51,479 nucleotides of DNA, taken from positions 1-51,479 of the IMG/VR virus record IMGVR_UViG_3300030110_003917; one strand, given 5' to 3'. Below are positions 4,314 through 35,473 of this stretch, one piece after another. The position numbers and the translations under genes were made by a program. Numbering within the stretch: position 1 is the first letter of the stretch; each line of letters starts with the position of its first letter. The stretch comes from a virus. The notes beneath the pieces were generated by a model, which was given only the letters and a program-made list of their open reading frames with translations, was not told the origin of the DNA and did no database searches.

Positions 4314-5501
4314 TTAAGAGAATAGTTTACTTACAGATAAGGCTAAGTCTTTATCCTCCCATCCTATATACATACGTGTAGTCTCTTCATTTTTATGACC
4401 ATAAATTTGAGATAGTTTATTTATGTTTCCATCAGATTCCATAAAATACCTACCAAAAGATTTACGAGCAGTATGAGTAGTAACTATCTCGTATAGCTTT
4501 TTAGTTTGTTTTGTTGGCTTATTAAAAGAATATTTTATGATTTCTATCTCCCTGTCTAACTCAGCTCTCTCACATAATCTTTTAATAATTTTATTTACTG
4601 ATTTTCTAGACACAATAGGCATGTAATTATTTGCTTTAAGTAATGTGTATGCTAATGTGTGAATGGGTATGTTTAAAAAATTACCAGTCTTCTGCCTATC
4701 TATTTTAATAAATGTTATTCCGTCTTTTCTAAAGATATGTTTTTTTCTGATGTTTCTAACTTCTGTAAATCCAAATCCTGTATATGCTTGAAATAAGAAA
4801 AAATGTAAAGTGTTTTTTTCTTCAACACTTTTTGTCTCTACCTCTGAAAGTGTTTTTAATTCTTCTTTAGTAAGCCAAAAAGGTATTTTACTTCGTTGTT
4901 TTGTGAGAAATTCAAACTCAAATCTTTTAAATGGTAAACCTTCTAATATTCCTTTTTTAATATAAATTTTAAGTTCACTAGAAATTTTTTTTATATAGTT
5001 ATCTGAGTATTTATTTTCTGACATTCCCATACATTCTTGGAAGTCATACCAAAATTTACTATCTACGTTAGCTATTTTTATATCAGGAGAACAATTATTT
5101 AAATGCAGTTCAAGCATCTTAACCCTTCTCCATGTTCCCTTAGAAACAAGTTTTTTTCTTTTTTCTTTATAGTAATTAATCCATTCTTTAAGAGTTGTGA
5201 AGTTTGTGGTTTTCTCTATTCTATCTTTAAGGCCAGTTAAAAAGTAAAACTCATTTTTAAACTCTTCTGATGTAGGGTAGTGTATGTTTTTATTTACAAG
5301 ATTTACAACAGTCTCGTTTAACTTGTTTTTATAGTAAGTAAGTATTTTGTTTTTTTCTTCGTCTCTTACGGTATATGTTTTAGAATTCCATAGGCTTTTA
5401 GAAATCTTAACTCCAGTTGAAATTTTAATTTCTTTATCCTCACAACTAATAATCATAGTAATTAGAGATCTATTTTTTACATAAGAAAACCAATATTTCA
5501 T
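4314..5501 (-). CDS. int: Tyrosine-type site-specific integrase
   Basis: This 395-residue protein has an N-terminal arm-binding region (1-90), a SAM-like core-binding domain (about 100-190) and a catalytic domain. Visible catalytic residues are K271, H343-x-x-R346 (HTARKSF), H369 (YGHK) and Y378 (the RMYIGWED segment). At the usual first-arginine position (TGxR) the sequence reads TGFGFTEVRN, with Gly244 instead of Arg. A similar loss is known in IntDOT of the Bacteroides element CTnDOT, so this is probably a lineage trait, not inactivation. It should catalyse phage integration and, with a helper, excision. The adjacent upstream region carries candidate arm and core sites. Confidence 0.9.
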   Translation of the reverse strand: MKYWFSYVKNRSLITMIISCEDKEIKISTGVKISKSLWNSKTYTVRDEEKNKILTYYKNKLNETVVNLVNKNIHYPTSEEFKNEFYFLTGLKDRIEKTTNFTTLKEWINYYKEKRKKLVSKGTWRRVKMLELHLNNCSPDIKIANVDSKFWYDFQECMGMSENKYSDNYIKKISSELKIYIKKGILEGLPFKRFEFEFLTKQRSKIPFWLTKEELKTLSEVETKSVEEKNTLHFFLFQAYTGFGFTEVRNIRKKHIFRKDGITFIKIDRQKTGNFLNIPIHTLAYTLLKANNYMPIVSRKSVNKIIKRLCERAELDREIEIIKYSFNKPTKQTKKLYEIVTTHTARKSFGRYFMESDGNINKLSQIYGHKNEETTRMYIGWEDKDLALSVSKLFS

Positions 5502-6952: not shown

Positions 6953-7567
6953 ATGAAAAACCAAAACGTGTATCAAAAGTTACTTAAAGTGCAGAGTGTA
7001 CTTAAAGTACCTAAAAATCAATTTAATAAGTTTATGAATTTCAAGTATCGCTCATGTGAGGATATATTGGAATACGCAAAACCTATCTGTTCAGAGAATG
7101 GATTGGTACTAACTACAGATAATAAAGTAGTTTCAGAGGGAGACCTAGATGATAGAAGAGTATTTGTGAGGTCTACTGCTAGAGTAACATGTGTTAATAC
7201 AGAAAAACATGTAGAAGTTTCTGCGTGTGCTGAAATACCTAAAGATAAAAAAGGTATGGACAGTAGTCAGATAACTGGTTCAGCTCAAAGCTATAGTAGA
7301 AAGTATGCTCTGTCTAATCTATTTTCTTTAGATGATCTAAAAGATTCAGATAGTGACGAGGTAACAGAAAAACAAGTAGAAGTAAAACCTCCTGTAAAAA
7401 AGGTAACCACCAAGCAAAAGTATACGCAGAAAGTTCATGATAATGTAATACCTATAGTAGCAGAGAAGGGTATGACAAAAGAGATTAAGGATAGTTTATC
7501 TAAGTATGATATTGATGATGAGTTTATGAGTGAAATAGAATCAGCCATAAAGTTTAATAAAAAATAA
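6953..7567 (+). CDS. erf: ERF-family single-strand DNA annealing protein
   Basis: This is a 204-residue protein. The region GMDSSQITGSAQSYSRKYALSNLFSLDD (residues 101-128) is the hallmark of the ERF recombinase family, which anneals complementary single strands and supports phage genome circularisation and recombination. Residues 31-50 (KYRSCEDILEYAKPICSENG) match the usual N-terminal helix. The C-terminal 70 residues form a basic linker and a helical tail that may contact other replication proteins. It heads the replication block, next to a DUF3127 protein that may supply SSB function. Confidence 0.85.
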   Translation: MKNQNVYQKLLKVQSVLKVPKNQFNKFMNFKYRSCEDILEYAKPICSENGLVLTTDNKVVSEGDLDDRRVFVRSTARVTCVNTEKHVEVSACAEIPKDKKGMDSSQITGSAQSYSRKYALSNLFSLDDLKDSDSDEVTEKQVEVKPPVKKVTTKQKYTQKVHDNVIPIVAEKGMTKEIKDSLSKYDIDDEFMSEIESAIKFNKK

Positions 7568-11709: not shown

Positions 11710-12133
11710 CAGAACCCTCCTTTCTAAGTAAGTCAATTAGATATTGTATGTGAATCAAATCTTTTTCGTTTGTATCTGATACTTCATCTAAAAGACAAGC
11801 AATTGATATTTCTAATTCCTTTAGTACATTATTTCTGTAAAAGTTTAAATACTCTTTTTGTATTCGCTTAGGTAGTTGAGTCATACTAACCCACTTCCAA
11901 TCACACAGAGTATCGTTAATATCATACAATACCTCTCCTTCTTTTTTAAGTACCTTCATTTTGTCTTCTATTTCCTCTTCAGTATAAGTACCTTGTAGAA
12001 GTTCCCAATAAATTGAATCCTCATCAAAAATAGTATCTAAACCATGTACATTTTCATAATTTTTATCACATATAACATAGTTAGTATCATATAATTTTAC
12101 ACTGTTTATCTTTATTGAAACATCAAAACTCAT
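11702..12133 (-). CDS. Hypothetical acidic protein, 143 residues
   Basis: The protein begins MSFDVSIKINSVKLYDTNYVI. It has an acidic mid region and a helical C-terminus ending RKEGSDE, the same ending as the upstream gene product. It starts inside the 22-base junction repeat at 12128-12149 with AGGAGGG five bases before the ATG. No known domain is seen. Size, acidity and placement in an early-type operon fit a host-interaction protein, but that is only an inference. Confidence 0.6.
   Translation of the reverse strand: MSFDVSIKINSVKLYDTNYVICDKNYENVHGLDTIFDEDSIYWELLQGTYTEEEIEDKMKVLKKEGEVLYDINDTLCDWKWVSMTQLPKRIQKEYLNFYRNNVLKELEISIACLLDEVSDTNEKDLIHIQYLIDLLRKEGSDE
11704..11725 (-). repeat. Gene-junction repeat, copy 1 (stop, Shine-Dalgarno and start in one module)
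   Basis: The 22 bases here are identical to 12128-12149. On the minus strand the module encodes the last residues RKEGSDE of the upstream gene, carries AGGAGGG, and includes the next start codon. Exact conservation at both amino-acid and ribosome-site level suggests recent duplication of a coupling junction. Confidence 0.7.
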
Positions 12134-12389
12134 CAGAACCCTCCTTTCTTATTACATTATCTTGAGCATACTCAAGGTCTACCCATCTATCACCATCTTT
12201 ATCATAAAGAATTCCATCTTCAACATAATCACCTACAAACTCAACACAGTAATCATATTCTTTATCATCAGTTTTCCACCAAATAGGTTTACCTATATAG
12301 TTTTCTAGTTTATCCTCTACAGGAGCAGGAGAGACGAACATGTTCTTCATGTCTAACATCTCTTCTATAGTTTCAAATCGTTTATTCAT
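12123..12389 (-). CDS. Small hypothetical protein with SH3-like C-terminal half
   Basis: I start at the ATG whose complement ends at 12389 (MNKRFETIEEMLDM), preceded by AAGTATAATA; upstream in-frame starts at 12416 and 12422 would run into the leader hairpins. Residues 30-80 (YIGKPIWWKT...YCVEFVGDYVEDGILYDKDGDRWVDLEYAQDNVIRKE) look like a small beta-barrel. The ending LEYAQDNVIRKE resembles LEYAKDNLVEKE at the end of the next upstream gene product, so the two proteins probably share a C-terminal domain. Function unknown. Confidence 0.6.
   Translation of the reverse strand: MNKRFETIEEMLDMKNMFVSPAPVEDKLENYIGKPIWWKTDDKEYDYCVEFVGDYVEDGILYDKDGDRWVDLEYAQDNVIRKEGSDEF
12128..12149 (-). repeat. Gene-junction repeat, copy 2
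   Basis: Identical to 11704-11725. Here it joins the 88-residue protein gene to the 143-residue protein gene, and again encodes RKEGSDE, a strong ribosome-binding site and the next start codon. See copy 1. Confidence 0.7.
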
Positions 12390-12468
12390 TTTATTATACT
12401 TTAATTTAATCTGCATATGCATTGAAGGTAGGAGGGGTAACGATCCCCTCCAAGTTCCATACTACCTT
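12390..12468 (-). ncRNA. Leader RNA element, copy 1
   Basis: On the minus strand the order is: outer stem AAGGTAG/CTACCTT (7 bp), an 11-base single strand, inner hairpin GAGGGG/CCCCTC with loop ATCGTTA, then the hairpin-like palindrome TGCATATGCA (12412-12421), then AAGTATAATA and the start codon at 12389. The same order occurs at 13404-13490 with a different but equally paired outer stem. It begins on the stop codon of the upstream gene. No U-tract follows the stems, so it is not an ordinary terminator. Confidence 0.6.
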
Positions 12469-13117
12469 ATAGTAATTCAACCTCGTTCTCCTTTTCTACT
12501 AAGTTATCCTTAGCGTACTCTAGTGTAAATGTTACATTGTCATCCTCTTCACATTCACATATTACTTCAAGATCATGGATTTCATTATTCAACCAACAAT
12601 AAGAATTTTCACAAACACTTATCCAAGTTATTTTACACACCTTACCATCCTTAGTTTTTACTAGCTTACCATTCCACTCATGTTGTAACTTACTTGCGTA
12701 GTCATCCTCCTTAGATTTACCAAGGTATTCTTGAGCACGATCATAAGCTCTCCCATCTATATCCCCTATGACTTCAATAAACTCCTTGTTAAGATGATTT
12801 TCCTCAACGTGTTCAGAAAATTGCTTTTGAATTGTATCAATAATATCAAGTTCTAAAACCTCTACTTTTTCATTCTTGTCTGTTCTCCATAAAACAGGCT
12901 TATAGTCTTTTAGAAAATCAGCAAGAGTAAACCTTCGACCAAAAGTTCCAATATCAATGTGTTTAAAAAGATCATCTATGGTTTCTTTCTTCCACTCAAT
13001 AGGCTTTGCGTAAAATGTATGAGAAAAAAAATCATTATTGAATCTTTTTAACCAAGGGTAATTCTTCGCATTTTTTGTTTTAGCTGTACGAAGAAAGCCA
13101 TATTTAAAATTATCCAT
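12467..13117 (-). CDS. Hypothetical protein, 216 residues, with C-terminal beta domain
   Basis: I choose the ATG ending at 13117 (MDNFKYGFLRTAKTKN) because GAGGAGG lies six bases before it; the longer reading would overlap the upstream gene by 74 bases. Residues 1-60 are basic and aromatic, the middle is helical, and residues 150-210 (GKLVKTKDGKVCKITWIS...TLEYAKDNLVEKE) form a beta domain with several cysteines, related in its ending to the downstream gene product. No known family is recognised. The 3' end runs into leader RNA element copy 1. Confidence 0.6.
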   Translation of the reverse strand: MDNFKYGFLRTAKTKNAKNYPWLKRFNNDFFSHTFYAKPIEWKKETIDDLFKHIDIGTFGRRFTLADFLKDYKPVLWRTDKNEKVEVLELDIIDTIQKQFSEHVEENHLNKEFIEVIGDIDGRAYDRAQEYLGKSKEDDYASKLQHEWNGKLVKTKDGKVCKITWISVCENSYCWLNNEIHDLEVICECEEDDNVTFTLEYAKDNLVEKENEVELL

Positions 13118-13403
13118 TGATAACCTCCTCTCTATAAAATTCCTCGTAGGAACTACACCTAGGAACAAACCACTCATCGTCATTAAACAAACCTGCTACA
13201 TCATGTAGTAAAGTAGTTGTAACATCTACTTCATTAGGATTGTCATTAGACCAATTTTCTAGACCTATTATTGATCTAGCATCTTTCTCAGATAATTTAT
13301 CAAGAGAAAATAAATACATTGTAATATTGTCATAGTGACCTTTTTTACATAAATGCCTTTTTAATACTCTGAAGGCATCTCTAAATAATTCGTAATTTTT
13401 CAT
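13110..13403 (-). CDS. Small hypothetical protein, 97 residues
   Basis: The protein begins MKNYELFRDAFRVLKRHLCKKGHYDNITM and is followed by an acidic C-terminal half. The start codon abuts AAGTATAATA and lies downstream of leader element copy 2. Its last codons encode the Shine-Dalgarno of the next gene (EFYREEVING around GAGGAGG), an 8-base overlap. No motif is recognised. Confidence 0.6.
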   Translation of the reverse strand: MKNYELFRDAFRVLKRHLCKKGHYDNITMYLFSLDKLSEKDARSIIGLENWSNDNPNEVDVTTTLLHDVAGLFNDDEWFVPRCSSYEEFYREEVING

Positions 13404-13490
13404 TATTATACTTGTTTGTTATTAATGCAAAATTGCATTGTAGCTAGGGGAGGAAACGATCCCCCCTTGCAACCATTCTAGCTTAGCTAC
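13404..13490 (-). ncRNA. Leader RNA element, copy 2
   Basis: On the minus strand the outer stem is GTAGCTA/TAGCTAC (7 bp, 13440-13446 with 13484-13490), followed by a 17-base strand and the inner stem GGGGGG/CTCCCC with loop ATCGTTTC. A palindrome AATGCAA..TTGCATT follows, then AAGTATAATA next to the start codon. One inner pair is G-U on the minus strand but would be A-C on the plus strand, which favours a minus-strand RNA. The element begins on the stop codon of the upstream gene. Confidence 0.6.
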
Positions 13491-13815
13491 TTAAAATTTC
13501 AATCTTTGTTAAATTGTAGTGAGAGTCAATCTTTTCTTGTGCGTACATCTTAATGATGTCTTCATAGGTTTTTTTACCATCAGATGGTTTGATGCTATTT
13601 AACCAACTAGTTAAAGGATATAACTCTTCAATTTGAAGGTCACCTACGACTGTTAACATTACATCATTACCAGTTAGGTAATAAGAAGTTTCAACATCAT
13701 CTGCGAACTGCATATTTAATCGCATATGTGCTAAGTCTACACTTGATCTGTGACTTAAAGTTTCTACTCTTTCTGTTGTTAATTCAATTTTTGTTGGGAA
13801 TCCGTAATTTTTCAT
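13483..13815 (-). CDS. Hypothetical protein, first gene of minus operon
   Basis: This 110-residue protein begins MKNYGFPTKIELTTERVETL and has alternating beta-like segments (VETSYYLTGNDVMLTVVGDLQIEEL) and a helical C-terminus. It is the promoter-proximal gene of the leftward operon; the next gene product also starts MKNY, perhaps reflecting shared initiation context. No family is recognised. Confidence 0.6.
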   Translation of the reverse strand: MKNYGFPTKIELTTERVETLSHRSSVDLAHMRLNMQFADDVETSYYLTGNDVMLTVVGDLQIEELYPLTSWLNSIKPSDGKKTYEDIIKMYAQEKIDSHYNLTKIEILSS

Positions 13816-16265: not shown

Positions 16266-19200
16266 ATGGCAAATGGTGATAAAAATAAATTTTCTATTGA
16301 TCTAGGATTTAGTGTAGCAGATAAACCATCTCTTTCAGAATCTAATACAGACTTACCCGATACTACTAAACTTAAATTTGATTTCTCTAGACCACAGGAT
16401 AGGTTTGATATGACTTTACCAAGTTATAAACCTAATGAATCTTCTTGGTATCCATCCAAATATTTGTTGGAAGGATTTGAGCAAGGATATAAAGGTATAG
16501 AAGGTGGATATAATTATCTTCAAACACTTGATGATGATTTAAGTTCGTTTGATAAATTAAAACTATTAGAAGCATTTGAAAAATCTTTACAAGATGCTCC
16601 AGCTCCAGCAGAAAAATTTTTATCAGCAAAAGGTATAGGTCAGTTTGTGGGTCAATTAGTGCCTTCTGCTGTTACGACACTTGTAGGAATAGGAACAGGA
16701 GTAGTTACTAAAAATCCATTATTAGGAATCGCAGTAGGTAGTTTAGGATTTGGAGGATTAGCAGTTTCTTCATTCGGTCAAGGGATGAAAGAATACGACA
16801 CATATAAACTATCTAAAGGAGAAGACCCTTACAGTATAAAATCTGAAATAAAATTAAAGTATAGTCAACCATCTATAAATGAAAGAAAGATATTAGGAGC
16901 TACGTATGGAGCTTTTGAGTTTATTGGAGAAGTTATTCCATTTACAAAGTTTTTACCTAAAAAATTAAAAAGTTTAGCAGTTCAAGGTGTAGGAGATAAG
17001 ATAATGAAAAGATCATTTCATCCAAACATATCTGATGAATTTATAGAGAGTGCAAATAAATCATTTATAAACTTTGCTAAAAAGAATAAGGCTAATCGAA
17101 AATTAGCTGAAAAACTTTTAGGTTTAGGTACATTTGAAGGAGCAGGAGAAATTGTTACAGAAGTAGGTCAATCATTTGGGGATTATCTAATTACAGAAGA
17201 TAAAAATGCATTTGATAATATAGCACAAGAATCGGGTAAAGCTTTTCTAGGTGGATTGCTTATGGGTGGAGGATTAGGAGTAGCATCATATGGCGCTCAA
17301 AACAATATGAATGAACAAAGAAGAGAAAATCAACAAAATCTTTTCTTTACAGAACATAATGATCAGTTTAAAGAAATTGTCACCATTAAAGAAAAAGAAG
17401 GAGGATCAAAAGAGTTTACACTCATGGATACATATGGTGATACTCAAAAGGTTAATGACACAGAATTAGATGGTCAAGTGTACAATCTTAGTAATGATCA
17501 GTTCAATGCAATACTTAAAAGTAAACAGGACGATATAAACCTACAGGATGAGGCTTTCATATTTGATACAAATATGCGTTTAGAACAAGAAAAGCAAACC
17601 CTAGTAGATATAGGAGAATTTGTGAAGACCCAACAAAAAGCTGATCCTAATTCTGATCCAGTAATCAATATTGCTAAAGTGAGTGGTGAAGATATAGTTA
17701 TAACTGGTAGAGGTGATAAAAATATTTATGGGTTTAAATTAGATGAATTTCAAGAAAATGGTTCTGCTATTCAGCAAGTATTTAATGTAGAAGATGTTCA
17801 GAGTAATGAGATAGAATCTATAAACGTAAATGAAGTTATAGAAAGAATTGAAGAAAGTAAAAAACAAACAATTCAAGCAGTAGAATCTTCATCACGTCCT
17901 GTTAAAGGTCAGAAGTTTACAATAGATGGTATTAGCTATAAAGTAGTAGGAACTTCAACTCAAGAAGTAAACCTAGAAAATGAAAATGGTGAGGTGTCTA
18001 ATTTAAACATGGAACAGTACACAGCTTTGAATAAAGCTAAGGAAGCAGTACAGTCAAATGATGGAACTATAACATTTGATCAGATACAATTTAATGAGGA
18101 TGGAACTATTATTCCCGAAATAAAATCTAAAGACTCAGTAACAGAATCTTTTCAAGTAGGTAATAAGAAATTTAATGTTAGATCATTAAACAAAGACACA
18201 GGATCAAGAGAATTATCTGAAACTTATAAGACAGAAAAAACAGCACAGAAATATGCAGACCTTCTTAATCAAGAGTATGGTAACCAAACATTTGAGATAG
18301 AAAATAGACTTGATCCTAACGATCCTCTAGCTAAAAACGATTATTATATAGTAGCTAAACCTAAGATTAATGATAATCAAATAAAGAAGATTAAGGCTAA
18401 GGCTAAAGAAGTACAAAAGAAAGAAAAGGTATTCAGTAAGGGAGCTGATGATGTGATGAAGGCTATAGAAACCAATCAAGGCACAGAACAAGCAGAGGTA
18501 TTTAAGGCAGAGTATGATAGACTCGTAGATAAAACCATACAAGCAAGAAATAAAAAACCTAGTGAGACACGTGAGACAGTTAAAACTAAAGAGGTAACAA
18601 AGAAAGAAGCTACAAAGACTACTAATGAGACAAAAACTAAGAAAAATGTCTCACAAAAGACAGAAAAAAAGAAAGTTATCAACAAAAAGGAAACTAAGCC
18701 TAAAATTGTAGTTAAAAACATTAAACCTAAGAAAAGTATAAAGTTCTCTAGAGAGTTCTTTGAGAAACTACCTCACGTGAATGAGAATAGAGACAAGGGC
18801 ATGTACTTTACAAGAGTAGTATCTCCATTCAATAAGAATCTTGTTAAGAAAGTAGAAACTATAGTAAATAGAATAAAAGGATCATGGAAGAATTCTCCTA
18901 ATACTGTAGTATACCAATCATTAGATGATTACAGACTAGACAATGGACAGGCTAATGTAGACGAGTACACGAATGCTTTTTGGGATCATGATAAGAATCA
19001 AATAGTATTTTTTGCTGATATGTTAGATACTGCTGGTAGGGTACAAGAGGTATTCTATCACGAGACTGTTGGACATCAAGGACTAAGAGGAATTTTATCT
19101 GAAAAAGAATTAAACAGCACACTAGACAAAGTCTACGATAAAATAAGATATAGATCATTAAACGATGCTAATAATGCTAAGAATAAAGAATTACAAAAAG

Positions 19201-22200
19201 AAGTATTCTTTTATCATTTTCATAGCTTAGATAATAGCCTACAATTTGATCCTACCAAGAACTATCTGAACGAAGTTAAACCAAATGGTTTTTCCCTAAC
19301 TCAAAAAGATAATAGAGATATTGCTGAAGAGCATATTGCACATGAAGCTGAAAAGTCAGAAAATAGAACTACAGTAAATAGTTTAGTAAAGTTATTTAGA
19401 TCATCTATTCAAAAACTTACAGGGAAAAAGGTTGACCTATTAGACAAACAAGTAAAAGAAATCATACAATCATCTAAACAATACATGAAATTAGGTGATG
19501 TATACATTAACAAAAACTCTTTAAAGCAAGCATCACAAAACAATTACAATGTAGCTGGTGGTCAAGACACAAAGAAAACATCATCATCAAGAGTTTTAGA
19601 AAGTATAAAACAAAGTAGAGAATTAAGAAGAAGTCAGCTAGCAAGTCAAGTAGACACCATCAATGAATCAGTAGAAATATTAGAAAAGAATTACAAGAAA
19701 GGTAAAACAGTAAACACGTCTAAGGGTAAGGATGTAGCATCAATGAAGCTGATAGAAGATTTATTAGGTAAAAGAACAGAAGCAGATGGTCAATACCTAA
19801 AACTTGCTAATATAATAAAAGACTACAATCAAATTAGAGGTACATACTCTGATGAAATAACAGACATTAATGAGGCTAAACAAGTGTTTGAAGAAGCTAA
19901 ATCTGATATTAAATCAAACCTTTTATTTGTATATAACAGCATTGATCCCGATATCAGAAACATATCTAAGCTGTGGTATGATTCAGCTAATTCAGTATTA
20001 GCGAAAAAACTAACAGAAGAATACGGAGTAACAAGAGATCAAGTATCGGGTGTAATAGCTGTCATGTCTCCACAAAAAGACTGGTTTAGAAATGTCGCTC
20101 TTGCAGATAGAGTATTAAAGATAGTTGTAGGAAACAAAGGATATACTTTTGATCAGAATATGGCTAAATACTTAATTAATGCAGTAGATCAAAAAGGAAA
20201 TAAAATCTTTCTTAAAAACTTGAAACCTACAGAAAGAAAAAGAAAAATAAATGGTTTTATTGGTAAAAAGATAACTGATCTAAAAGGAGAGGATGTTGGT
20301 TTATTTATAAGAGCATTTGATAATGAGTATCTACCCGATAAGAGTTATTATAATTATTCACCTACTGGAGATGTTATAGGAAAAGTCAAAACAAAAGCAG
20401 GGCTAGACTCTAAAATAGCTTGGGGATCAACAGGAGAAATAGGTAAAGCAGTAAGTGTTATTCAAAACGGATCAAAAGAAAACATTTCTAATCAGTTAGG
20501 TGATCAGCACAAGGTAAGAAGTTTCTATAATAACATATCTGATCCTAAGAATAAAAACTCAGTTACTATAGATACTCATGCAATTGCATCTGCTTACTTA
20601 CTTCCGTTATCTGGTAAAGATGGTATAACACTACTAGGACTTGGAGGCGCTCCTGCATCAACAGTAACAGGAGTAAAAGGAACTTACGGATTAATAGCTG
20701 ATGCGTATAGAGAAGTAGCTACTGATCTAAAAATCTTACCAAGAGAACTACAGAGCATCGTATGGGAAGGAGTAAGAGGATTCTATACTGATATATTCAA
20801 GAGAAACGCAAATAATAAACTACAAGTCAATAGGGTATGGGAGGATTATAAACTAGGCAACATCAAAGACAAAAAAGAAGTATTTGCAAAACTTAAAGAA
20901 ATTGGAGGAGACTTCAATAATCCTGTATGGCTAGAAAATGTACTTAACGGAGATAATTCTAAAGTAGAGCAGAAAACAAAGGATCAGAATATTGCAAACC
21001 TAGATGTAGAAGTATTAGAAGGGCAGGAGAACGTAGAAGCTGAAAAGGTGTACAAACAGTCTAGAAACTATGTAAACTCAGATAAATTTAAAGAGTTTAT
21101 TAAAGGATCAGTTGTTGTTAATAATGATGGATCACCAAAGGTTATGTTCCATGGATCACCAGCCACAGAAAATATAAATCAGATATGGTTTAATAATAAG
21201 TACATAGGAAAGGGTAATGATCAGTTAGGATCGGGATTCTATTTTAGCTCAGAGCCTATGGAAGCTACAGCTTACTCAGAAGGGTATAAGTATGATGGTG
21301 TATTAAGTGAAAGAATAAGAAGCAAAATAGGTGACTTAAAAATGTCACCAGGAATTGTTCCTGTGTATCTGTCTGTTAAAAACCCAATGCCCGATACTTT
21401 TTCTACCACAAAAGAACAAGTTAAAAAACTAATACTAGCCTCACCACTAGTACAATCTAAAGACGAGACTATAAACCCTTTAACTAATTGGTACGCAGAA
21501 TTTAATGATCTTATAAAAACTAAAGCAGGACTAGAAAAAATGGTAGATGGAATAGTAGAATCTTATTCGTATCAACCAACTACCATAGACAAAGATGATC
21601 TTAATCCTATAATAAATGATTTCTACGAAGGTGGAGAGTTTGCCCCACAGTTCCTAAAAGCAATACAAGATATTTATGGATACGATGGGTACGTTTTAAA
21701 TGAATATTTAGACTCTGTTATTGGCTTAACTGAAGAAATGGAAAAAAGACTTGGTTTTAAAGAAGGCAGAACAAAATCTACTGTGGTAGCATTTTTTCCC
21801 GAACAGATACAATCAGCATTACAAACAGATATTCCAATAAATAATACTCCTGTTAAAAAGTCTATTAACATGGAATACCAATACAATGAAAATAAAAAAG
21901 ACAATCTCCTTGTTAATATGCTTAATAGCATTGAGAATCTTCCATCAGACAAAAAGCTCAGTTACGGTGAATGGATAAGGCATTTTGTAGAATATACTAA
22001 TCTTGACATTACAAAGGCTAGGTGGTTAGGAATTACTGAAAAACTTAAAAAGAAAAAACACTTTCCTAAAGAGGCTTGGGACATAGTAGCAGAAACGCAG
22101 ATTAACACTATTGATATGCACCCTAATTCTAATAGTAAAATGCTTATTCTATCTAAGCAGTACAACGGTAAGAAAATAGCGTCTGAGTTTAAAGAAGCAT

Positions 22201-25200
22201 TTACAGACACTACACTAGACGTGTACGTAAATGTTGATAAGGTAGACAGAACATTATTAGTATTTGGAGCAAAAAATATTTCTAATAAAATAGACCCAGT
22301 CACAATACACAAAAAACTTATTAAGTATGCCACTACAAATAATATGGACGTGATTGTATCACCCGACGCAAAGTCTCTGAATCAAATCAAAACAACATTT
22401 GATTATAAGGCTCCTATTACGAGTAAGAAATTCAAAACAGAAGACGGAAAAGAAGTCACATACTACAGCATGCACATAACTCCAATACTTAAAAATTTAT
22501 CCATATCAGAGACAAATATTATGCAGTCTAGGAGTTTTTTAAGTAGAAAGGATATGCTTAATGCAAGATGGTTATTTCAAGACTCATTATTGTACTTAAA
22601 AAGATTACAAGATGATATAGAGGTAAAAACTGGAAAGACAATAAAAGATTATAATAATGCGTATGTTCTTGAGAACTTAAGTAAAGGTAAAATATTAAAC
22701 TCTTTTGAAAGATTTGATTTAAAGTACGGATCAAAATTAAAAGATATTGTACAAGAAATTATTTTAAATAAAAACACAGAAATACAAGACGTTAACGATT
22801 ATGTGTACGCAAAACACGCTATAGAAAGAAACAAAATGAAGCCTTCGGGAATGACAAATGAAGAAGCTAATACTATCATAAATTCTTTTGAAAAAATAAT
22901 TCCTAAAAAACAAATTGATAACCTTATTGAGACAGTTAAAGAAATTAATAGGTTTAATGTGCAAACGGCATTCGATAATGGACTAATTACATCAGAGCGT
23001 TTTAATACAATTTATCCAAGAAAAGGAAAAAGTAAAACAGCTATGTTTGATTTTTATGTACCACTCAGAGGCTTTGAGGAATCAGAAACTGATACGTCTG
23101 TATTTATAGACTTAAACAAAAAGATGAAGGGTAGAAAGTCTAAGGCAGATAGCCCTTTAGCTTATCTTGTTGGTCTTGTTCAAACTACTATGATAAGAGC
23201 TGAACAAAACAAATATAAACTTGCTCTTTATAATTTACTTTTAGAAAATCCAGACTCTAATTCGTATGAGATTAAAAACTTATTTTATAAAGAATTAGAT
23301 GGCAAAATTATAGAAGACAACACAAAAGGGGATAAAGGAAAATTAAAAATATCTGAAAAAGATTTAAGACTAGGTAAAGAAATACAAAGATTTCAAATGG
23401 GTAACGACTCAAGAGAAAACACGATTAGTGTTATGGTAGAAGGACAAAGAAAAGTTATTGAGTTTTTTGGTGAGGATAATGTCAAAATAGCTCAAGGAAT
23501 TAACGGTTATATAGTAGAAGGAAGTAAAACAAAAGGTGTTAGCGATTCTTTTAAAAAGATAGGTGATTTTGGTATACCTGCTAATAAGTTTTTTCCTGGT
23601 ATTTCTTTAAGAAATATTAATGGTTTTATGAGAAATATGTTTACTCAGTATTCACCAGAATTTATACCAGTAAACTTTGTTAGGGACATGGGTTCTGGTT
23701 TAATAAATATAACTACAGACTACGGAAAAGATACTGCGATAGAAGTAGCTAAAGAAACTACAAAATCAATAAAAACATTGTCTGGATATTTTTATGGTAA
23801 TAAGAAAAAACTCCCTAAAGGTGATGAGGGAGAATATCTTGCTCAGTTTATAGAAAACGGAACAAGAACAGGATACTCTCAGCCTAGAAGTATAGATGAA
23901 ATTAAAAAAGATTTCGCAGATTTAAAAACATATCTAGACCCTACAAATAAAAGTATTAAGGCTCAAATAGTTAAAAGAGGAAAAAAAGGATATGAATACG
24001 GAAAAGCAGTTGTAAATATTTTAGATCAGTCTAATCTTGTTCTTGAAAATACAGTTCGTTATTCTGCGTTTAAAACACTATTAAAGAAAGGGGAGTCAGT
24101 TGACACAGCGAGTAAGTACGCTAAAGACTTAACGGTAAACTTTAATAAAAAAGGAATGTTAACAAATGATATAGCTGGTGTATTCTTATTTTTTAATGCT
24201 GGGGTTCAAGGAGTTGAGAGAATGACAAGACCGTTTTTTACAGGAAAAGCAAAAAATGCGACAAGTACATATGCAAAAGTAGCTACTGTAGGATTTTTAA
24301 GTGCAATGCTTGCGAGGATATTAGGAGGAGAAGATGAAGATAAAAAATATTTTTATGATAAATTACCAGAATACATAAGAAGTACGAATATGGTACTCGT
24401 AAACCCATTGTATTGGGCTGGAGTTTCTGATACTAAGTTTTTACTAATACCATTAGCTTATGGTTATAGCTCAGTCTTTAGTTCTTCAGATCCTTTTGTA
24501 AGATATAATTTAGGATATCAAGGATTTACTTCAGCTTTCTCTAGTATACTAGATAATTTTGCTGGATCATTTTCACCTTTAGGATCAGTTAATACTGAAA
24601 ATAGAACTCCTCTGCAATCAGCTATTAAGTATTTTACTCCTACAGGATTGTCTCCTGTAGTTGATTTAGCACAAAACAGAAACTTTTTTGGTGGTAGGAT
24701 ATACCCAGACAATCCGTATGATAAATCTGATAAGCCTGGATTTAGAAGTGCTGACTTAAATACTAATGATGGAGCTACTTTTTTTTCAAAAGCATTAAAT
24801 AAACTTTCTTTTGGAGATGATTTTGAGGCAGGATATATAAGCCCAAAACCACAACAAATAGAATATCTTATAAGTCAATACTTTGGTGGTGTAGGAAAAA
24901 CAGTAATGAAAACATATAAACTTATAGATAATGCTTCGACACCAGGAAAACCACTATACGAAGACATGAATGACATACCATTAGTAAGAAGATTTGCTAC
25001 TGAAGCTGAAAAAACCAGTGATGAATACAGCACATATTATGGGATGTTAAACGCAATAAGTGAAGCTCAAGCTAAAAAAAGATCATTTACTAAGGATTTA
25101 GAAAATAGAATTATGACTCGTAAAGTATTTAATGAGAAAATGAACAAAAAACAAGACGATGCTTTTGGGTATACTAGAAAAGAATTAGTTAAACTTGGTG

Positions 25201-25421
25201 ACAGTAGACGTTACGGATCAAAAAAAGGAAGTATACCATACAATATTCGTGAATTATACACAGAAAGAGAAGAAGCGTTAAAGAATAAAAAATATGAATT
25301 AGCACAGAAAAAAGAGCAGGATATCCTAAAACAAATGAAAAAATTCAATAAATTTGTTACTAGGGATAAATACTCTACTCTACCCTCTGGAAACATGCTA
25401 GAATATTTATTAGGAGAGTAA
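16266..25421 (+). CDS. Giant polyvalent ejection protein with metallopeptidase-like, ART and LPD38-like regions
   Basis: This is a 3051-residue protein. Gly-rich hydrophobic hairpins occur near residues 120-180 and 327-345; repeat-like beta segments with a GQKFxIDGxSY motif near 547; a Lys/Thr-rich linker at 762-826; HETVGHQGLR at 932-941, a phage zincin-like motif with one extra residue compared with HExxH; a DUF7178-like segment (VSGVIAVMSPQKDW) around 1220-1290; an ADP-ribosyltransferase-like domain about 1610-1865 (FHGS at 1628-1631, GSGFYFSS, later FFPEQIQSAL); and an LPD38-like region about 2116-2650 (YAKHAIERN, FFNAGVQGVERM). Such polyvalent proteins are injected with phage DNA and are thought to protect it. 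Domain calls are by motif, not search. Confidence 0.75.
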   Translation: MANGDKNKFSIDLGFSVADKPSLSESNTDLPDTTKLKFDFSRPQDRFDMTLPSYKPNESSWYPSKYLLEGFEQGYKGIEGGYNYLQTLDDDLSSFDKLKLLEAFEKSLQDAPAPAEKFLSAKGIGQFVGQLVPSAVTTLVGIGTGVVTKNPLLGIAVGSLGFGGLAVSSFGQGMKEYDTYKLSKGEDPYSIKSEIKLKYSQPSINERKILGATYGAFEFIGEVIPFTKFLPKKLKSLAVQGVGDKIMKRSFHPNISDEFIESANKSFINFAKKNKANRKLAEKLLGLGTFEGAGEIVTEVGQSFGDYLITEDKNAFDNIAQESGKAFLGGLLMGGGLGVASYGAQNNMNEQRRENQQNLFFTEHNDQFKEIVTIKEKEGGSKEFTLMDTYGDTQKVNDTELDGQVYNLSNDQFNAILKSKQDDINLQDEAFIFDTNMRLEQEKQTLVDIGEFVKTQQKADPNSDPVINIAKVSGEDIVITGRGDKNIYGFKLDEFQENGSAIQQVFNVEDVQSNEIESINVNEVIERIEESKKQTIQAVESSSRPVKGQKFTIDGISYKVVGTSTQEVNLENENGEVSNLNMEQYTALNKAKEAVQSNDGTITFDQIQFNEDGTIIPEIKSKDSVTESFQVGNKKFNVRSLNKDTGSRELSETYKTEKTAQKYADLLNQEYGNQTFEIENRLDPNDPLAKNDYYIVAKPKINDNQIKKIKAKAKEVQKKEKVFSKGADDVMKAIETNQGTEQAEVFKAEYDRLVDKTIQARNKKPSETRETVKTKEVTKKEATKTTNETKTKKNVSQKTEKKKVINKKETKPKIVVKNIKPKKSIKFSREFFEKLPHVNENRDKGMYFTRVVSPFNKNLVKKVETIVNRIKGSWKNSPNTVVYQSLDDYRLDNGQANVDEYTNAFWDHDKNQIVFFADMLDTAGRVQEVFYHETVGHQGLRGILSEKELNSTLDKVYDKIRYRSLNDANNAKNKELQKEVFFYHFHSLDNSLQFDPTKNYLNEVKPNGFSLTQKDNRDIAEEHIAHEAEKSENRTTVNSLVKLFRSSIQKLTGKKVDLLDKQVKEIIQSSKQYMKLGDVYINKNSLKQASQNNYNVAGGQDTKKTSSSRVLESIKQSRELRRSQLASQVDTINESVEILEKNYKKGKTVNTSKGKDVASMKLIEDLLGKRTEADGQYLKLANIIKDYNQIRGTYSDEITDINEAKQVFEEAKSDIKSNLLFVYNSIDPDIRNISKLWYDSANSVLAKKLTEEYGVTRDQVSGVIAVMSPQKDWFRNVALADRVLKIVVGNKGYTFDQNMAKYLINAVDQKGNKIFLKNLKPTERKRKINGFIGKKITDLKGEDVGLFIRAFDNEYLPDKSYYNYSPTGDVIGKVKTKAGLDSKIAWGSTGEIGKAVSVIQNGSKENISNQLGDQHKVRSFYNNISDPKNKNSVTIDTHAIASAYLLPLSGKDGITLLGLGGAPASTVTGVKGTYGLIADAYREVATDLKILPRELQSIVWEGVRGFYTDIFKRNANNKLQVNRVWEDYKLGNIKDKKEVFAKLKEIGGDFNNPVWLENVLNGDNSKVEQKTKDQNIANLDVEVLEGQENVEAEKVYKQSRNYVNSDKFKEFIKGSVVVNNDGSPKVMFHGSPATENINQIWFNNKYIGKGNDQLGSGFYFSSEPMEATAYSEGYKYDGVLSERIRSKIGDLKMSPGIVPVYLSVKNPMPDTFSTTKEQVKKLILASPLVQSKDETINPLTNWYAEFNDLIKTKAGLEKMVDGIVESYSYQPTTIDKDDLNPIINDFYEGGEFAPQFLKAIQDIYGYDGYVLNEYLDSVIGLTEEMEKRLGFKEGRTKSTVVAFFPEQIQSALQTDIPINNTPVKKSINMEYQYNENKKDNLLVNMLNSIENLPSDKKLSYGEWIRHFVEYTNLDITKARWLGITEKLKKKKHFPKEAWDIVAETQINTIDMHPNSNSKMLILSKQYNGKKIASEFKEAFTDTTLDVYVNVDKVDRTLLVFGAKNISNKIDPVTIHKKLIKYATTNNMDVIVSPDAKSLNQIKTTFDYKAPITSKKFKTEDGKEVTYYSMHITPILKNLSISETNIMQSRSFLSRKDMLNARWLFQDSLLYLKRLQDDIEVKTGKTIKDYNNAYVLENLSKGKILNSFERFDLKYGSKLKDIVQEIILNKNTEIQDVNDYVYAKHAIERNKMKPSGMTNEEANTIINSFEKIIPKKQIDNLIETVKEINRFNVQTAFDNGLITSERFNTIYPRKGKSKTAMFDFYVPLRGFEESETDTSVFIDLNKKMKGRKSKADSPLAYLVGLVQTTMIRAEQNKYKLALYNLLLENPDSNSYEIKNLFYKELDGKIIEDNTKGDKGKLKISEKDLRLGKEIQRFQMGNDSRENTISVMVEGQRKVIEFFGEDNVKIAQGINGYIVEGSKTKGVSDSFKKIGDFGIPANKFFPGISLRNINGFMRNMFTQYSPEFIPVNFVRDMGSGLINITTDYGKDTAIEVAKETTKSIKTLSGYFYGNKKKLPKGDEGEYLAQFIENGTRTGYSQPRSIDEIKKDFADLKTYLDPTNKSIKAQIVKRGKKGYEYGKAVVNILDQSNLVLENTVRYSAFKTLLKKGESVDTASKYAKDLTVNFNKKGMLTNDIAGVFLFFNAGVQGVERMTRPFFTGKAKNATSTYAKVATVGFLSAMLARILGGEDEDKKYFYDKLPEYIRSTNMVLVNPLYWAGVSDTKFLLIPLAYGYSSVFSSSDPFVRYNLGYQGFTSAFSSILDNFAGSFSPLGSVNTENRTPLQSAIKYFTPTGLSPVVDLAQNRNFFGGRIYPDNPYDKSDKPGFRSADLNTNDGATFFSKALNKLSFGDDFEAGYISPKPQQIEYLISQYFGGVGKTVMKTYKLIDNASTPGKPLYEDMNDIPLVRRFATEAEKTSDEYSTYYGMLNAISEAQAKKRSFTKDLENRIMTRKVFNEKMNKKQDDAFGYTRKELVKLGDSRRYGSKKGSIPYNIRELYTEREEALKNKKYELAQKKEQDILKQMKKFNKFVTRDKYSTLPSGNMLEYLLGE

Positions 25422-25491: not shown

Positions 25492-27453
25492 ATGGCTGAA
25501 AAGAAAACAGATTATACGGAAATAAATCTTGAGACTCTCAAAATGTTTGAGGATGCTGGAGAGATGAACGTCATCGATGATGCTGATGTCACAGAAGACA
25601 TGAAGCAAATACTTGAGGACGCAGAGACTTATTGGTCCAATCTCCAAAATTTTAGAGACAGAAGAGAAAGGAATAGGGAATATTATAGGGGTAGACAATA
25701 CTCTGACCTTGTAGATGATCCCGATAATGAAGGCTCTAGTGTATCAGAAGAAGAATTAATCAGAAGAGCAGGAAGACAGCCACTTGTAAATAATCAAGTA
25801 AGACAATTAGTAAAGAACTTAATAGGTCAGTATCGTATGAACGATTACAAGCCTATGGTCAGAGCGAGAAAAAGGGAAGACTCATCCAAGACAGAGATGA
25901 TGACTAATGCCCTTCAGTATTGCTATGACATGAATGAATTGACAGAATTAGATGCTAGAGCTTTTGAGGAATTCCTGCTCAGTGGATCTGTCATATGGAA
26001 GACTGGATTTGATTACTTCAGAGAGAAGGATATGGAGGATGTAAGCGTGGAGATGGTCAACCCGTCCAGACTTTTTTTTAACACTGATGTAAGCGATGTC
26101 AGATTGAAAGATGTGAGGTTTATAGGAGAAATAATAGATACCACGTTGGAGCAAGTAATAAAGGCATTTGCTAAAAACCCTGGGGATGAGGAAAAGATAA
26201 AGATGATTTATGCCAACGATGACTATAACAGAGCCGACTATACAGGAGACTTTGATAGCGATAATGTTGATAATACATCATTCTATGTTTCAGAGACGAT
26301 GGATCAGGTGAGGCTGTTTGAGGTATGGAGAACGGAAATGGAAGATAGAGTTATGTGTCATGACTTACTTACTGGTGAATACTACCAACACCCTATTGAT
26401 ATAGTGGACGTCGCTGTATCAGTTGTTGAAGAAGAGAATGTAAAAAGAATAGAGGAAGCTCAAGCGCAAGGCGTAGAAATTGAGCTTATACCATTAATAC
26501 AATACGAGATAAGAAAAGAAGAAGTATGGAAATATTATTTCATATCACCATACGGTGACCTTCTTGCAAGTGGAAACACACCATTTGAACACCAACAATT
26601 TCCGTATACCATAGGTTTATACCCAATGGTAGACAGTGAAGTCTTTGGGTTTGTTGAGGATATCATAGATCAACAAAGACACATAAATAGAATAATATCA
26701 CTTATGGATTTTATGTTGGGGGCATCAGCGAAAGGTGTACTTATGATTCCTGAAGAAAGTATTCCTGATGGGCTGACACCACAAGATTTTGCAGATCAGT
26801 GGGTTAAGGCTAATGGTATTATTGTGTATAAAGGTAAAAGTGGTGTAGCCCCTCAACAAGTTGTGTCTAATTCATCTACTACTACAGGCACACAATTACT
26901 GGGCCTTCAGATGCAACTAATAAAAGAGATATCGGGTGTTACCGAAGCGATACAAGGACAAACTCCTGGATCAGGAACTCCAGCGTCATTATACCAACAA
27001 ATGACCACAAACGCTACTATTTCAAGTAGAGACTTTTTTGAGTTCTTCTTTGGGATAAGAAGAAAAAGAGATTTTAAAATGGTGCAGAACATAAAACAGT
27101 TTTATGACGCACCGAGGTATGTTAACGTGAGCGGAAAAGATTATGATAATGAGGCGTATATGTATGATCCTACACAAGTTCAAGACTGTAAGTTTGATAT
27201 TGTGATAGCAAAATCAGCAAATGCTCCAGTGTTTAGACAGATGATTGATGATTACCTCTTCCAGTTCTTACAAGGTGGTATCATTGATATCAACATGTTC
27301 CTTGAGAATACGAGCATGCCTTTCGCAGATAAATTATTAGAGCAAATAAAACAAAAGCAAGAAACTCTGCAACAGACTATGCAAGGAGGACAACCTCCTA
27401 CACCTGAAGCTATGCAGATGTTACAGCAGGCTATGGGAGGGGCGCAAAAATGA
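25492..27453 (+). CDS. Portal protein, P22-like
   Basis: This is a 653-residue protein. It has the features of P22-like portals: an N-terminal helical region with YWSNLQNFRDRRERNREYYRGRQY (47-70), RQPLVNNQVRQLVKNLIGQYR (about 95-114), an ALQYCYDMNELTELDARAFEEFLLSGSVIWKTGFDY segment, an EVFGFVEDIIDQQRHINRIISLMDFM stem-like part, and an acidic-to-Gln-rich C-terminus (QQTMQGGQPPTPEAMQMLQQ). The portal forms the DNA channel and docks terminase and tail. The stop overlaps the next start (ATGA). Confidence 0.85.
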   Translation: MAEKKTDYTEINLETLKMFEDAGEMNVIDDADVTEDMKQILEDAETYWSNLQNFRDRRERNREYYRGRQYSDLVDDPDNEGSSVSEEELIRRAGRQPLVNNQVRQLVKNLIGQYRMNDYKPMVRARKREDSSKTEMMTNALQYCYDMNELTELDARAFEEFLLSGSVIWKTGFDYFREKDMEDVSVEMVNPSRLFFNTDVSDVRLKDVRFIGEIIDTTLEQVIKAFAKNPGDEEKIKMIYANDDYNRADYTGDFDSDNVDNTSFYVSETMDQVRLFEVWRTEMEDRVMCHDLLTGEYYQHPIDIVDVAVSVVEEENVKRIEEAQAQGVEIELIPLIQYEIRKEEVWKYYFISPYGDLLASGNTPFEHQQFPYTIGLYPMVDSEVFGFVEDIIDQQRHINRIISLMDFMLGASAKGVLMIPEESIPDGLTPQDFADQWVKANGIIVYKGKSGVAPQQVVSNSSTTTGTQLLGLQMQLIKEISGVTEAIQGQTPGSGTPASLYQQMTTNATISSRDFFEFFFGIRRKRDFKMVQNIKQFYDAPRYVNVSGKDYDNEAYMYDPTQVQDCKFDIVIAKSANAPVFRQMIDDYLFQFLQGGIIDINMFLENTSMPFADKLLEQIKQKQETLQQTMQGGQPPTPEAMQMLQQAMGGAQK

Positions 27454-33514: not shown

Positions 33515-35473
33515 TTAAATTTCTACAAAAGATGATCTTCTGTTTATATATCTATGATGACTTTCTACATCTACTTCTATACAAGGGTCCATATAACTTG
33601 TAGCAAGCCATAATGCGCCCATTGTAGAAATAAGCATGTCATCGTTTTGTCCGTCAACTGCACCCATACTACCATCAGCTTTAAGCTCATAATAGTCTGC
33701 TTCGTAGTACACTCTCTCATCATACTCTTCATATGCTCTCTCACGTAAAAGTTTATTAAAATTGTCAATCATCATTGTCTTTGACGCTTTGTTCGTATGA
33801 AATCCGTATCTTTTTGGTTGCCCTTCTCTTATCTGATCTAAAGAAGTTCTCATAAATAAATTATCGTAGTGTTCAGATATTTCATCTAGTATTGTGAGGT
33901 AGTGATTACCCTCAGCTCCCATTCCCTTTGTCTGAAGTGAATTTACCTCTACAGCAAGTAATGCATTATTATATGCTTTAGCTATTTGAACAGCTTTCCA
34001 TGCAAAAAGATCCTGATCCAAATGTCCCCTCCATGAGCAGGCTCTCACTGGGAGTCCACCCCTCATCATGTCTATCCTGTCTATAACAGTGATAGCAGAA
34101 TAATCTGCTTTTTCAGTTCTACCCCCAATATCTACAAAAGCACAGTATCTGTTCTTCATTATTTTTCCAGGAGGGTCATCTGGAAATCTCCACACTTGTA
34201 GGTTTCCTTTTTTGGTTTCTAGTATTGTAATGTCTTCTAAAGCATCGTTACCTCCTACTTGTGGAAAGACATCACCCACTAGCTCTGGCTCTCTTAAAAG
34301 TTCTCTAAGGTTTATTATATAGGCAGGAGAGAAGGCTTTTCTTCCAGTAGACTGGAACGCTTCTCTGTCATTACTTGGAAACTCACTCTGCATACGCCAA
34401 AGGTCCTCACCAAACTCACTAAACTTTTCTCTGTACCAGTGAATACCTTCTATGGTAGCTCCTTTTTTCCAGAGAGTTTTTTCGTATGAGTTTAGAGATT
34501 TAAAAAATTCTATTTTCTTTTGTTTTGTTTTAAATGGTTTTTGATAGAGTTCTATTTCAAACCACGAAACAAATACTGCGCTCATATTATTTTCTCCACG
34601 TTTCGCTTTTAACCACGTAGAATGGAAGTAATTACCAACACCTTTTGCGGTTGACTCCATAATAAATAAAGAGTAGGGGATAGAAGGGATTGTTCCAAGA
34701 ATAGACTGGACCATATCATCTGGAGATTTACCTTGTGTTGTTTTCCATAGACCAACTTCTGTGAGGTGAGCCATTGCAATATCAGAAGATCTGATAGTGT
34801 CTGGTTTTTGTGCTGAACCTATTCTTATCACACAACCTCTTTCTGGTATCCACTTATTTTTTTGTGAATTCTCGTAATTTGCTAGAGAGTAAGATGCAAT
34901 CTCCTTCGGGATGTTTTCTATAAGTCTTGTGTACATGCTTCTTACGTTTATAGCCTGTGCCTCCACGTCACCAGCAATCACGCTGTTCCAGTTCTTTTTG
35001 TGCATAAGCTGTAACCATGCCATGTATATTTGTATAAGAGTAGATCCTCCCCATTGCCTAGCTTTCGTTAAAATTATACGTATGGGTTTTTCTTCAGCCC
35101 TTTGTAATTCTAAAGCCTTCAAAAGTTTTAATTGCGCTTTTCTTAGAATAAAAGGAATAATTTTTTCTGATTCCTTGTCTTTTATTTTTACGCACATGAC
35201 ACAGAAAAACTCAAAGTCATGGATTATTCTGTACACCACAAACTGATGCAGAACATTATCTATTACAAGATTATTGTCATCACAGTAGTCTTCAAATGAT
35301 TTGTATCCATCATACACCTTCATGGATTTAGGAATATAAAACCATTTTCCTTTTTTATTATACAACCGAAATCTTCTCCTAGGAATGGTACTTCCAGTAC
35401 CCGTATAAGGGTCATAATTCTTATTTAAAATCTTTAGACGCTTGTCATTTTCCTCTAAAATTTTATGAATCAT
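33515..35473 (-). CDS. terL: Terminase large subunit
   Basis: This is a 652-residue protein. A Walker A-like KARQWGGST is at 137-145, a Walker B segment IAMAHLTEV with E239 follows, then a coupling IMESTA motif (271-276). The C-terminal nuclease has CAFVDIGG (D448), AVEVNS (E509) and DGQNDDML (D607, D611, D612). It cuts and pumps DNA into procapsids. It is in reverse orientation relative to capsid and tail genes, and no typical small terminase precedes it; candidates are the HTH protein at 10511 and the divergent gene at 35525. Confidence 0.9.
   Translation of the reverse strand: MIHKILEENDKRLKILNKNYDPYTGTGSTIPRRRFRLYNKKGKWFYIPKSMKVYDGYKSFEDYCDDNNLVIDNVLHQFVVYRIIHDFEFFCVMCVKIKDKESEKIIPFILRKAQLKLLKALELQRAEEKPIRIILTKARQWGGSTLIQIYMAWLQLMHKKNWNSVIAGDVEAQAINVRSMYTRLIENIPKEIASYSLANYENSQKNKWIPERGCVIRIGSAQKPDTIRSSDIAMAHLTEVGLWKTTQGKSPDDMVQSILGTIPSIPYSLFIMESTAKGVGNYFHSTWLKAKRGENNMSAVFVSWFEIELYQKPFKTKQKKIEFFKSLNSYEKTLWKKGATIEGIHWYREKFSEFGEDLWRMQSEFPSNDREAFQSTGRKAFSPAYIINLRELLREPELVGDVFPQVGGNDALEDITILETKKGNLQVWRFPDDPPGKIMKNRYCAFVDIGGRTEKADYSAITVIDRIDMMRGGLPVRACSWRGHLDQDLFAWKAVQIAKAYNNALLAVEVNSLQTKGMGAEGNHYLTILDEISEHYDNLFMRTSLDQIREGQPKRYGFHTNKASKTMMIDNFNKLLRERAYEEYDERVYYEADYYELKADGSMGAVDGQNDDMLISTMGALWLATSYMDPCIEVDVESHHRYINRRSSFVEI

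Follow-up and report, generated by a model that had tools for sequence, protein, structure and literature searches.

What are the two similar structures that fill both gaps in a minus-strand series of short phage genes? The locus lies in what we call the window, i.e. the whole stretch of DNA analyzed here (51,479 nucleotides, IMG/VR virus contig IMGVR_UViG_3300030110_003917). The window carries an integrase gene at 4314-5501 and the following landmarks:

6953-7567: gene for an Erf annealing protein
25492-27453: portal gene
33515-35473: terminase gene

Since terminase and portal are ~37-38% identical to those of the Bacteroides phages BF1-TP2, BKO1-TP3 and BS-TP4, the host of the window phage probably belongs to the Bacteroidota. 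In three Bacteroides phage records, PQ571263.1, PQ571269.1 and PQ571277.1, the gene that matches the window's large terminase bears the label “tail spike protein”. Directly 5' of the portal gene lies an ORF of 3051 aa (16266-25421), at whose place BS-TP4 has a much longer ORF of 16 kb (PQ571277.1 1511-17686). Diverged direct repeats (families D1-D6, D8-D10, D14) occupy 45000-51300 and perhaps belong to a repetitive fibre gene.

The short genes of the minus-strand series gave no useful family matches, and each of the two gaps holds one copy of the structure. At the DNA level the locus matched no phage record, and close protein relatives of the genes flanking the elements were found in three contigs only. 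From 5' to 3' on the minus strand the features are:

13483..13815, minus strand: upstream gene, 110 aa, no family match; its TAA shares 2 nt with the 13.4-kb element
13438..13484, minus strand: tRNA-like element, 13.4-kb copy; R1 62.9 bits, R3 56.6 bits (the copy itself being among the R3 seeds)
Parts of the 13.4-kb copy, 5' to 3': acceptor AAGCTAG (13484-13478), linker AATGGTTGCAA (13477-13467), T-stem GGGGGG (13466-13461), T-loop ATCGTTT (13460-13454), T-stem CCTCCC (13453-13448; one G.U pair), acceptor CTAGCTA (13447-13441), tail CAA (13440-13438)
13424..13439, minus strand: small 3' hairpin AATGCA-ATTT-TGCATT, directly 3' of the 13.4-kb element
13110..13403, minus strand: gene between the elements, 97 aa, no family match; ATG 34 nt past the 13.4-kb element
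12467..13117, minus strand: gene between the elements, ~216 aa, start behind GAGGAGG; its TAA shares 2 nt with the 12.4-kb element
12422..12468, minus strand: tRNA-like element, 12.4-kb copy; R1 64.2 bits, R3 47.9 bits, E 1e-12 (the copy itself being among the R3 seeds)
Parts of the 12.4-kb copy, 5' to 3': acceptor AAGGTAG (12468-12462), linker TATGGAACTTG (12461-12451), T-stem GAGGGG (12450-12445), T-loop ATCGTTA (12444-12438), T-stem CCCCTC (12437-12432), acceptor CTACCTT (12431-12425), tail CAA (12424-12422)
12412..12421, minus strand: TGCATATGCA palindrome 3' of the 12.4-kb copy, a weak hairpin (3 bp); the related contig L124 has TGCAATTTTGCA there
12123..12389, minus strand: downstream gene, ~88 aa, start 32 nt past the 12.4-kb element; its N-terminus matches the L124 gene MNKQFETIEEMLD

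Our analysis bears out the first-pass annotation in its core claim of paralogous structured elements in the two operon gaps. The copies, ~50 nt each on the minus strand, are a 73% direct repeat of each other (family D12), and the window holds two strong full-length covariance-model matches, exactly these two. Both have the architecture that had been described, i.e. outer stem, linker, G/C-rich inner hairpin, TGCA palindrome and start codon. The shared fold of 44 nt consists of a 7-bp outer stem, an 11-nt linker with ATGG, a 6-bp inner stem and a 7-nt loop, the 3' strand of the inner stem running directly into that of the outer stem in both copies. The reported loop ATCGTT is present in both and is better taken as 7 nt, ATCGTT[A/T]. 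Each element does begin on the stop codon of the upstream gene, at the second base of TAA, and the next ATG follows 32-34 nt downstream. The label “leader” is thus half right, the upstream stop placing the element at least as tightly as the downstream start.

Other parts of the initial description had to be adjusted against L124, a close relative of the window (portal 93% identical) that keeps both elements, the 12.4-kb one identically. The sequence AAGTATAATA before the start codon is present in both window copies but missing from both L124 copies, and is therefore not a conserved part. The G-U inner pair was correctly seen in the 13.4-kb copy; in its L124 homologue an A-U pair replaces it and the acceptor is a full 7 bp. 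Compensatory change between the outer stems holds as well, but the register GTAGCTA/TAGCTAC proposed for the 13.4-kb copy is not the one that the homologues favour. They back AAGCTAG/CTAGCTA, with 6 pairs and an A.A end: GTAGCTA does not occur in L124, whose strands AAGCTAG and CTAGCTT pair perfectly, and the shifted register yields an 11-nt linker and a 6-bp inner stem, equal to the 12.4-kb copy. Folding of longer window sequence by energy alone prefers GTAGCTA/TAGCTAC, so that thermodynamics does not settle the register and our preference follows the homologues. Window 12123-13815 and L124 2409-4363 also differ in the genes before and between the elements, and the downstream gene of L124 joins the N-terminus of the window 12123 gene to the 11702 gene; the comparison points to mosaic exchange at the element-bearing operon.

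A scan of viral contigs for GGGGATCGTTNCCYCC hit mainly phage tRNA genes, in which the match was the T-arm directly 5' of the acceptor 3' strand and NCCA. Because the loop pattern fell in tRNA T-arms, we read the window element in tRNA terms, as acceptor stem plus T-arm with ATGG as the D-loop GG. A T-loop AUCGUUA with positions 54/58 reversed (A/U for U/A) occurs in ordinary tRNA genes of phages, most of all in tRNA-Asp(GTC); such loops were seen in L005, L012, L018 and many other contigs, with ARAGORN used to call tRNA genes among them. Judged from its sequence, the element is half a tRNA, comprising acceptor stem, D-loop GG and T-arm and no anticodon arm. This likeness, the recurrence in many phages and the likely operon-punctuation role had been overlooked in the first-pass annotation.

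Members of the class were collected by patterns and covariance models in turn. A second pattern gave 65 stretches, from which a descriptor scan kept only the close relative (L182/L124). A pattern with ATGG at a fixed distance gave members in L124/L182 (two), L052, L209 and L217; the L217 element also occurs in the Dysgonomonas genome contig L219, and a related one in Dysgonomonas L231. A five-sequence covariance model found an unseeded second element in a Dysgonomonas prophage (L245, 33 bits, E 1e-7), whose loop UUCGAUU is a canonical tRNA T-loop; positions 54 and 58 therefore change jointly from A/U to U/A. The next model added canonical members in the Bacteroidota genome L248 and, directly 5' of the Erf gene, a member in Bacteroides fragilis phage BF1-TP2. 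Scanning for ATGGTYN{7,8}GGTTCGAYTCC gave matches in at least 120 viral contigs, and a later model gave 96 matches (94 distinct) in 74 loci, several with three to five on one strand. In all, at least 124 distinct elements were obtained, chiefly from viral contigs. Named phages of Mycobacterium, Gordonia, Streptomyces, Corynebacterium and Bacteroides carry them too, with 12 in Mycobacterium phage Indlulamithi (NC_048824, 35033 to 42377) and 9 and 10 matches in Gordonia phages Cafasso and Morgana, respectively; no RNA is annotated at the actinophage blastn match sites. Whole bacterial genomes matched at E <= 1e-4 in at least 3/296 Bacteroidota and at least 5/246 Actinomycetota, lower bounds from ~20-25 candidates scored per genome, and in 0/249 Pseudomonadota, a weak negative given the same ~20-25 candidates. 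BS-TP4 and BKO1-TP3, relatives of the window phage, gave no model match, so the element is not essential to this phage type.

Weak matches in L247 (in a coding region) and in L249 and L250 (borderline) were left out of the firm members, and blastn matches in Stenotrophomonas, Cronobacter and Porphyromonas phages were set aside as model matches to T-arm fragments only. No phage record matched the flanks of the elements in L347, L301 and L356. The BF1-TP2 element and its flank recur, nearly unchanged, in L319 and L335; 5' of that element lie ~120 nt of G/C-rich non-coding sequence (L253 750-872), which may be a larger structured RNA. On the minus strand of L296 (4731-4985) three tandem elements stand ~110-120 nt apart among GCACGG-type short repeats, a spacing too short to flank ordinary genes.

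Is the fold real? Homologues with conserved pairing, on which the original proposal had been made to depend, were found, and few-seed covariance models recovered unseeded members. In the 94-sequence alignment standard pairs fill 93.8% of the pair cells (53% when shuffled), covariation is 0.963 (0.170, sd 0.012, when shuffled; at most 0.134 when slid) and two-sided changes number 493 (131 when shuffled). As this alignment was fitted to the structure, the cleaner evidence is a model-free test of the 5' flanks. Among 121 distinct hits with enough flank, picked by ATGGTY + GGTTCGAYTCC only, 69% form an outer stem of at least 5 bp, compared to 8.7% (maximum 15.7%) in 200 permutations of the flanks. 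By computation, the fold of the class is well supported.

The bases conserved within this fold are those of a tRNA. At loop positions 54/58 we counted T-A in 116 and A-T in 8 of 124 elements and no other combination, i.e. UUC[GA]A in 116/124 and the reversed AUCGUUW in 8/124, both window copies included; T55 and C56 are present in 124/124, with G or A at 57 in all. The acceptor stem has 5-7 bp and the linker to the T-stem 10-11 nt in most elements, shorter than a D-arm. Acceptor and T-stem together make a helix of 11-13 bp in 115/124 (mode 12 bp). After 11- or 12-bp helices the next base is A in 51/76 and a purine in 63/76, followed by C in 62/76; after 13-bp helices it is C in 39/39. A second C is rare (8/115), and the encoded tail mostly reads N-C and then non-C, so that CCA is not encoded. 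Selection by pattern partly builds in the loop and GG counts, while tail, acceptor and T-stem extension are free of such bias. In the three annotated phages (Indlulamithi, Cafasso and Morgana), collected by a blastn seed and then the model, GG occurs in 29/29 linkers and TTC[GA]A in 29/29 loops. Judging from these conserved bases, the linker GG may sit where the D-loop G18G19 would contact T-loop U55 C56.

The elements lie between genes of one operon and on the gene strand. Of 87 elements, 67% start -12 to +10 nt from the stop of a same-strand ORF (8.5% for random positions), and the distance to the next start clusters at 5-50 nt (n = 87). Comparison with the annotation of these three phages covered 29 elements, and 25 of them begin -2 to +11 nt from an annotated stop. 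Indlulamithi has 12 elements at 12 junctions, and, except for gp52/gp53, its overlapping or near-abutting gene pairs have none. Eleven of the 12 start 4-11 nt past the annotated stop (one 134 nt past), and the next annotated start lies 31-42 nt past the element in 11 cases; at the remaining junction the annotated gp53 start falls within the element and may be misplaced. A stem of at least 6 bp follows 26% of 121 elements (6.6% of shuffles), and the TGCA palindrome of the window is this 3'-hairpin part of the class.

RNase P recognizes the tRNA elbow and the acceptor/T helix, and the bacterial enzyme prefers a 3' RCCA; CCA blocks RNase Z in bacteria. The elements have traits of an RNase P substrate in their ~12-bp coaxial helix with a T-loop and the mostly purine base at 73; the full 3' RCCA is absent and purine-C is usually kept. 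Because the acceptor/T-arm set and the purine-C at the place of RCCA are retained, we read the element as a putative minimal substrate, cut between genes. For E. coli RNase P RNA, an acceptor stem, T-stem and T-loop joined in a model hairpin suffice for efficient cleavage at the canonical site (PMC11143913). In the proposed mechanism, host RNase P would recognize elbow and helix length and cut at the 5' end of the acceptor stem, whereupon the upstream message would end at or just past its stop codon and the downstream message would keep a structured 5' end. Alternatively, RNase Z may also cut after the discriminator base, which the rarity of the second C would leave it free to do, and the small following hairpin would become the 5' end of the downstream message. 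The predicted RNase P cut lies mostly a few nucleotides beyond the stop codon in the three annotated phages and inside UAA in both window copies. In these two this would yield a nonstop message, unless cleavage comes only after translation or at a slightly shifted site. We infer transcription, RNase P (and RNase Z) cleavage and the effect on messages, and consider it rather probable that the class represents natural minimal substrates of RNase P, perhaps also of RNase Z, which punctuate phage operons. The wider proposal, for which we see the chances as evenly balanced, is an unrecognized phage-wide RNA class of anticodon-less minimal RNase P substrates that would repeatedly cut operons into messages whose ends are defined, at the least in phages of Actinomycetota and Bacteroidota, the following hairpin in a subset being the protected 5' end of the next message.

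The element could also act uncut, as a stable tRNA-like roadblock which protects upstream 3' or downstream 5' ends or insulates translation. Placement by the stop codon and the small hairpin in a subset would suit such an insulator or stabilizer too, and the host groups with matches, Actinomycetota and Bacteroidota, have 5' exonucleases. Any stable hairpin would do for this purpose, however, and the conserved T-loop, the linker GG, the ~12-bp helix and the purine-C tail would not be needed, which makes this scenario unlikely. Somewhat less credible still is a decoy or regulator site for another tRNA-recognizing protein, such as a tRNA-modifying enzyme, the CCA-adding enzyme, an EF-Tu-like factor or a phage protein. 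The T-arm is indeed a recognition site of several tRNA enzymes, and a genome with as many as 12 copies would be in keeping with a sponge, but a decoy has no need for gene junctions behind stops, and the constant spacing from the stop speaks for an action on the message. We regard as quite improbable that the elements are recombination linkers, i.e. conserved intergenic stretches where phages exchange gene cassettes. Elements and a few flanks are 82-90% alike between window and L124 while most adjoining genes differ, as linkers would predict; within one genome, however, the stems differ and pairing is kept by compensatory change, which serves the fold and hinders homologous recombination. Hardly any credence can be given to decayed tRNA genes minus the anticodon arm, for although acceptor and T-arm are as in tRNA and many phages have tRNA genes, the uniform architecture in unrelated phages, the compensated stems, the avoidance of CCA, the placement behind stops and the lack of any ARAGORN tRNA call among the elements tested all stand against them. 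The model was also run on seven loci, six of which had proved rich in true tRNA genes; its best match there was a 21.5-bit T-arm fragment, and no full-length match exceeded 13.4 bits.

Three known kinds of element were dismissed. An intrinsic terminator is ruled out, as had been argued at first pass: after the acceptor both window copies read CAATGC, with no T-run directly after the hairpin. tmRNA is rejected, as ARAGORN called none in the window and a tag-coding domain is lacking; the tRNA-like domain of tmRNA, with acceptor stem, T-arm and D-loop, likewise has no anticodon arm, yet the element differs in having no tag-coding domain, no CCA and 44 nt only. In cluster K mycobacteriophages, the extended start-associated sequences (ESAS) are 17-bp inverted repeats, imperfect ones, linked to a 13-bp start-associated sequence (SAS), GGGATAGGAGCCC (PMC3203893). 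These too are repeated intergenic elements 5' of start codons in actinophages, but the ESAS differ in form, and the cluster K phages Anaya and Pixie gave no model match.

Closest to the putative operon-punctuating substrates come synthetic hairpins, reportedly those of McClain and Altman, in which an acceptor stem with T-stem and T-loop serves as a model substrate for RNase P (reviewed in PMC11143913). Those synthetic RNAs carry RCCA. The element resembles them in the acceptor stem coaxial with T-stem and T-loop, the missing anticodon arm and the ~12 bp from loop to cleavage site. In contrast to these, it is natural, has a 10-11-nt GG linker and purine-C only, and lies inside phage operons, its cleavage being putative. 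In mitochondria, polycistronic transcripts are punctuated by tRNAs and tRNA-like t-elements. There, too, tRNA or tRNA-like folds stand between the genes, but mitochondria use whole tRNAs or larger tRNA-like folds, while the phage fold is minimal and present in up to 12 copies per genome. Processing in mammalian mitochondria is among the subjects of PMC5435911. The first-pass view that no described RNA class has this form agrees with our searches. Rfam 15 at gathering threshold gave no match in the window or in 11 element-bearing loci, a permissive Rfam search of the region gave chance-level matches only, and no description of such elements was found in our searches of the journal literature. 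The repeated, minimal, anticodon-less phage version of a punctuation known from mitochondria thus appears to be new, and there is a substantial chance that the element deserves an RNA class of its own.

Phages with long operons need to cut and stabilize their messages, and the means are little known outside a few model phages. If the punctuation scenario is true, a tRNA mimic that makes use of a ribozyme essential to the host would offer a general solution that is hard to evade, and tRNA punctuation would become a phage strategy besides a mitochondrial one. The elements would also provide many minimal substrates made by nature, from which the true requirements of RNase P could be read. In the annotation of actinophage and Bacteroidota phage genomes the elements could be marked now, as up to 12 stand unannotated in a single public genome.
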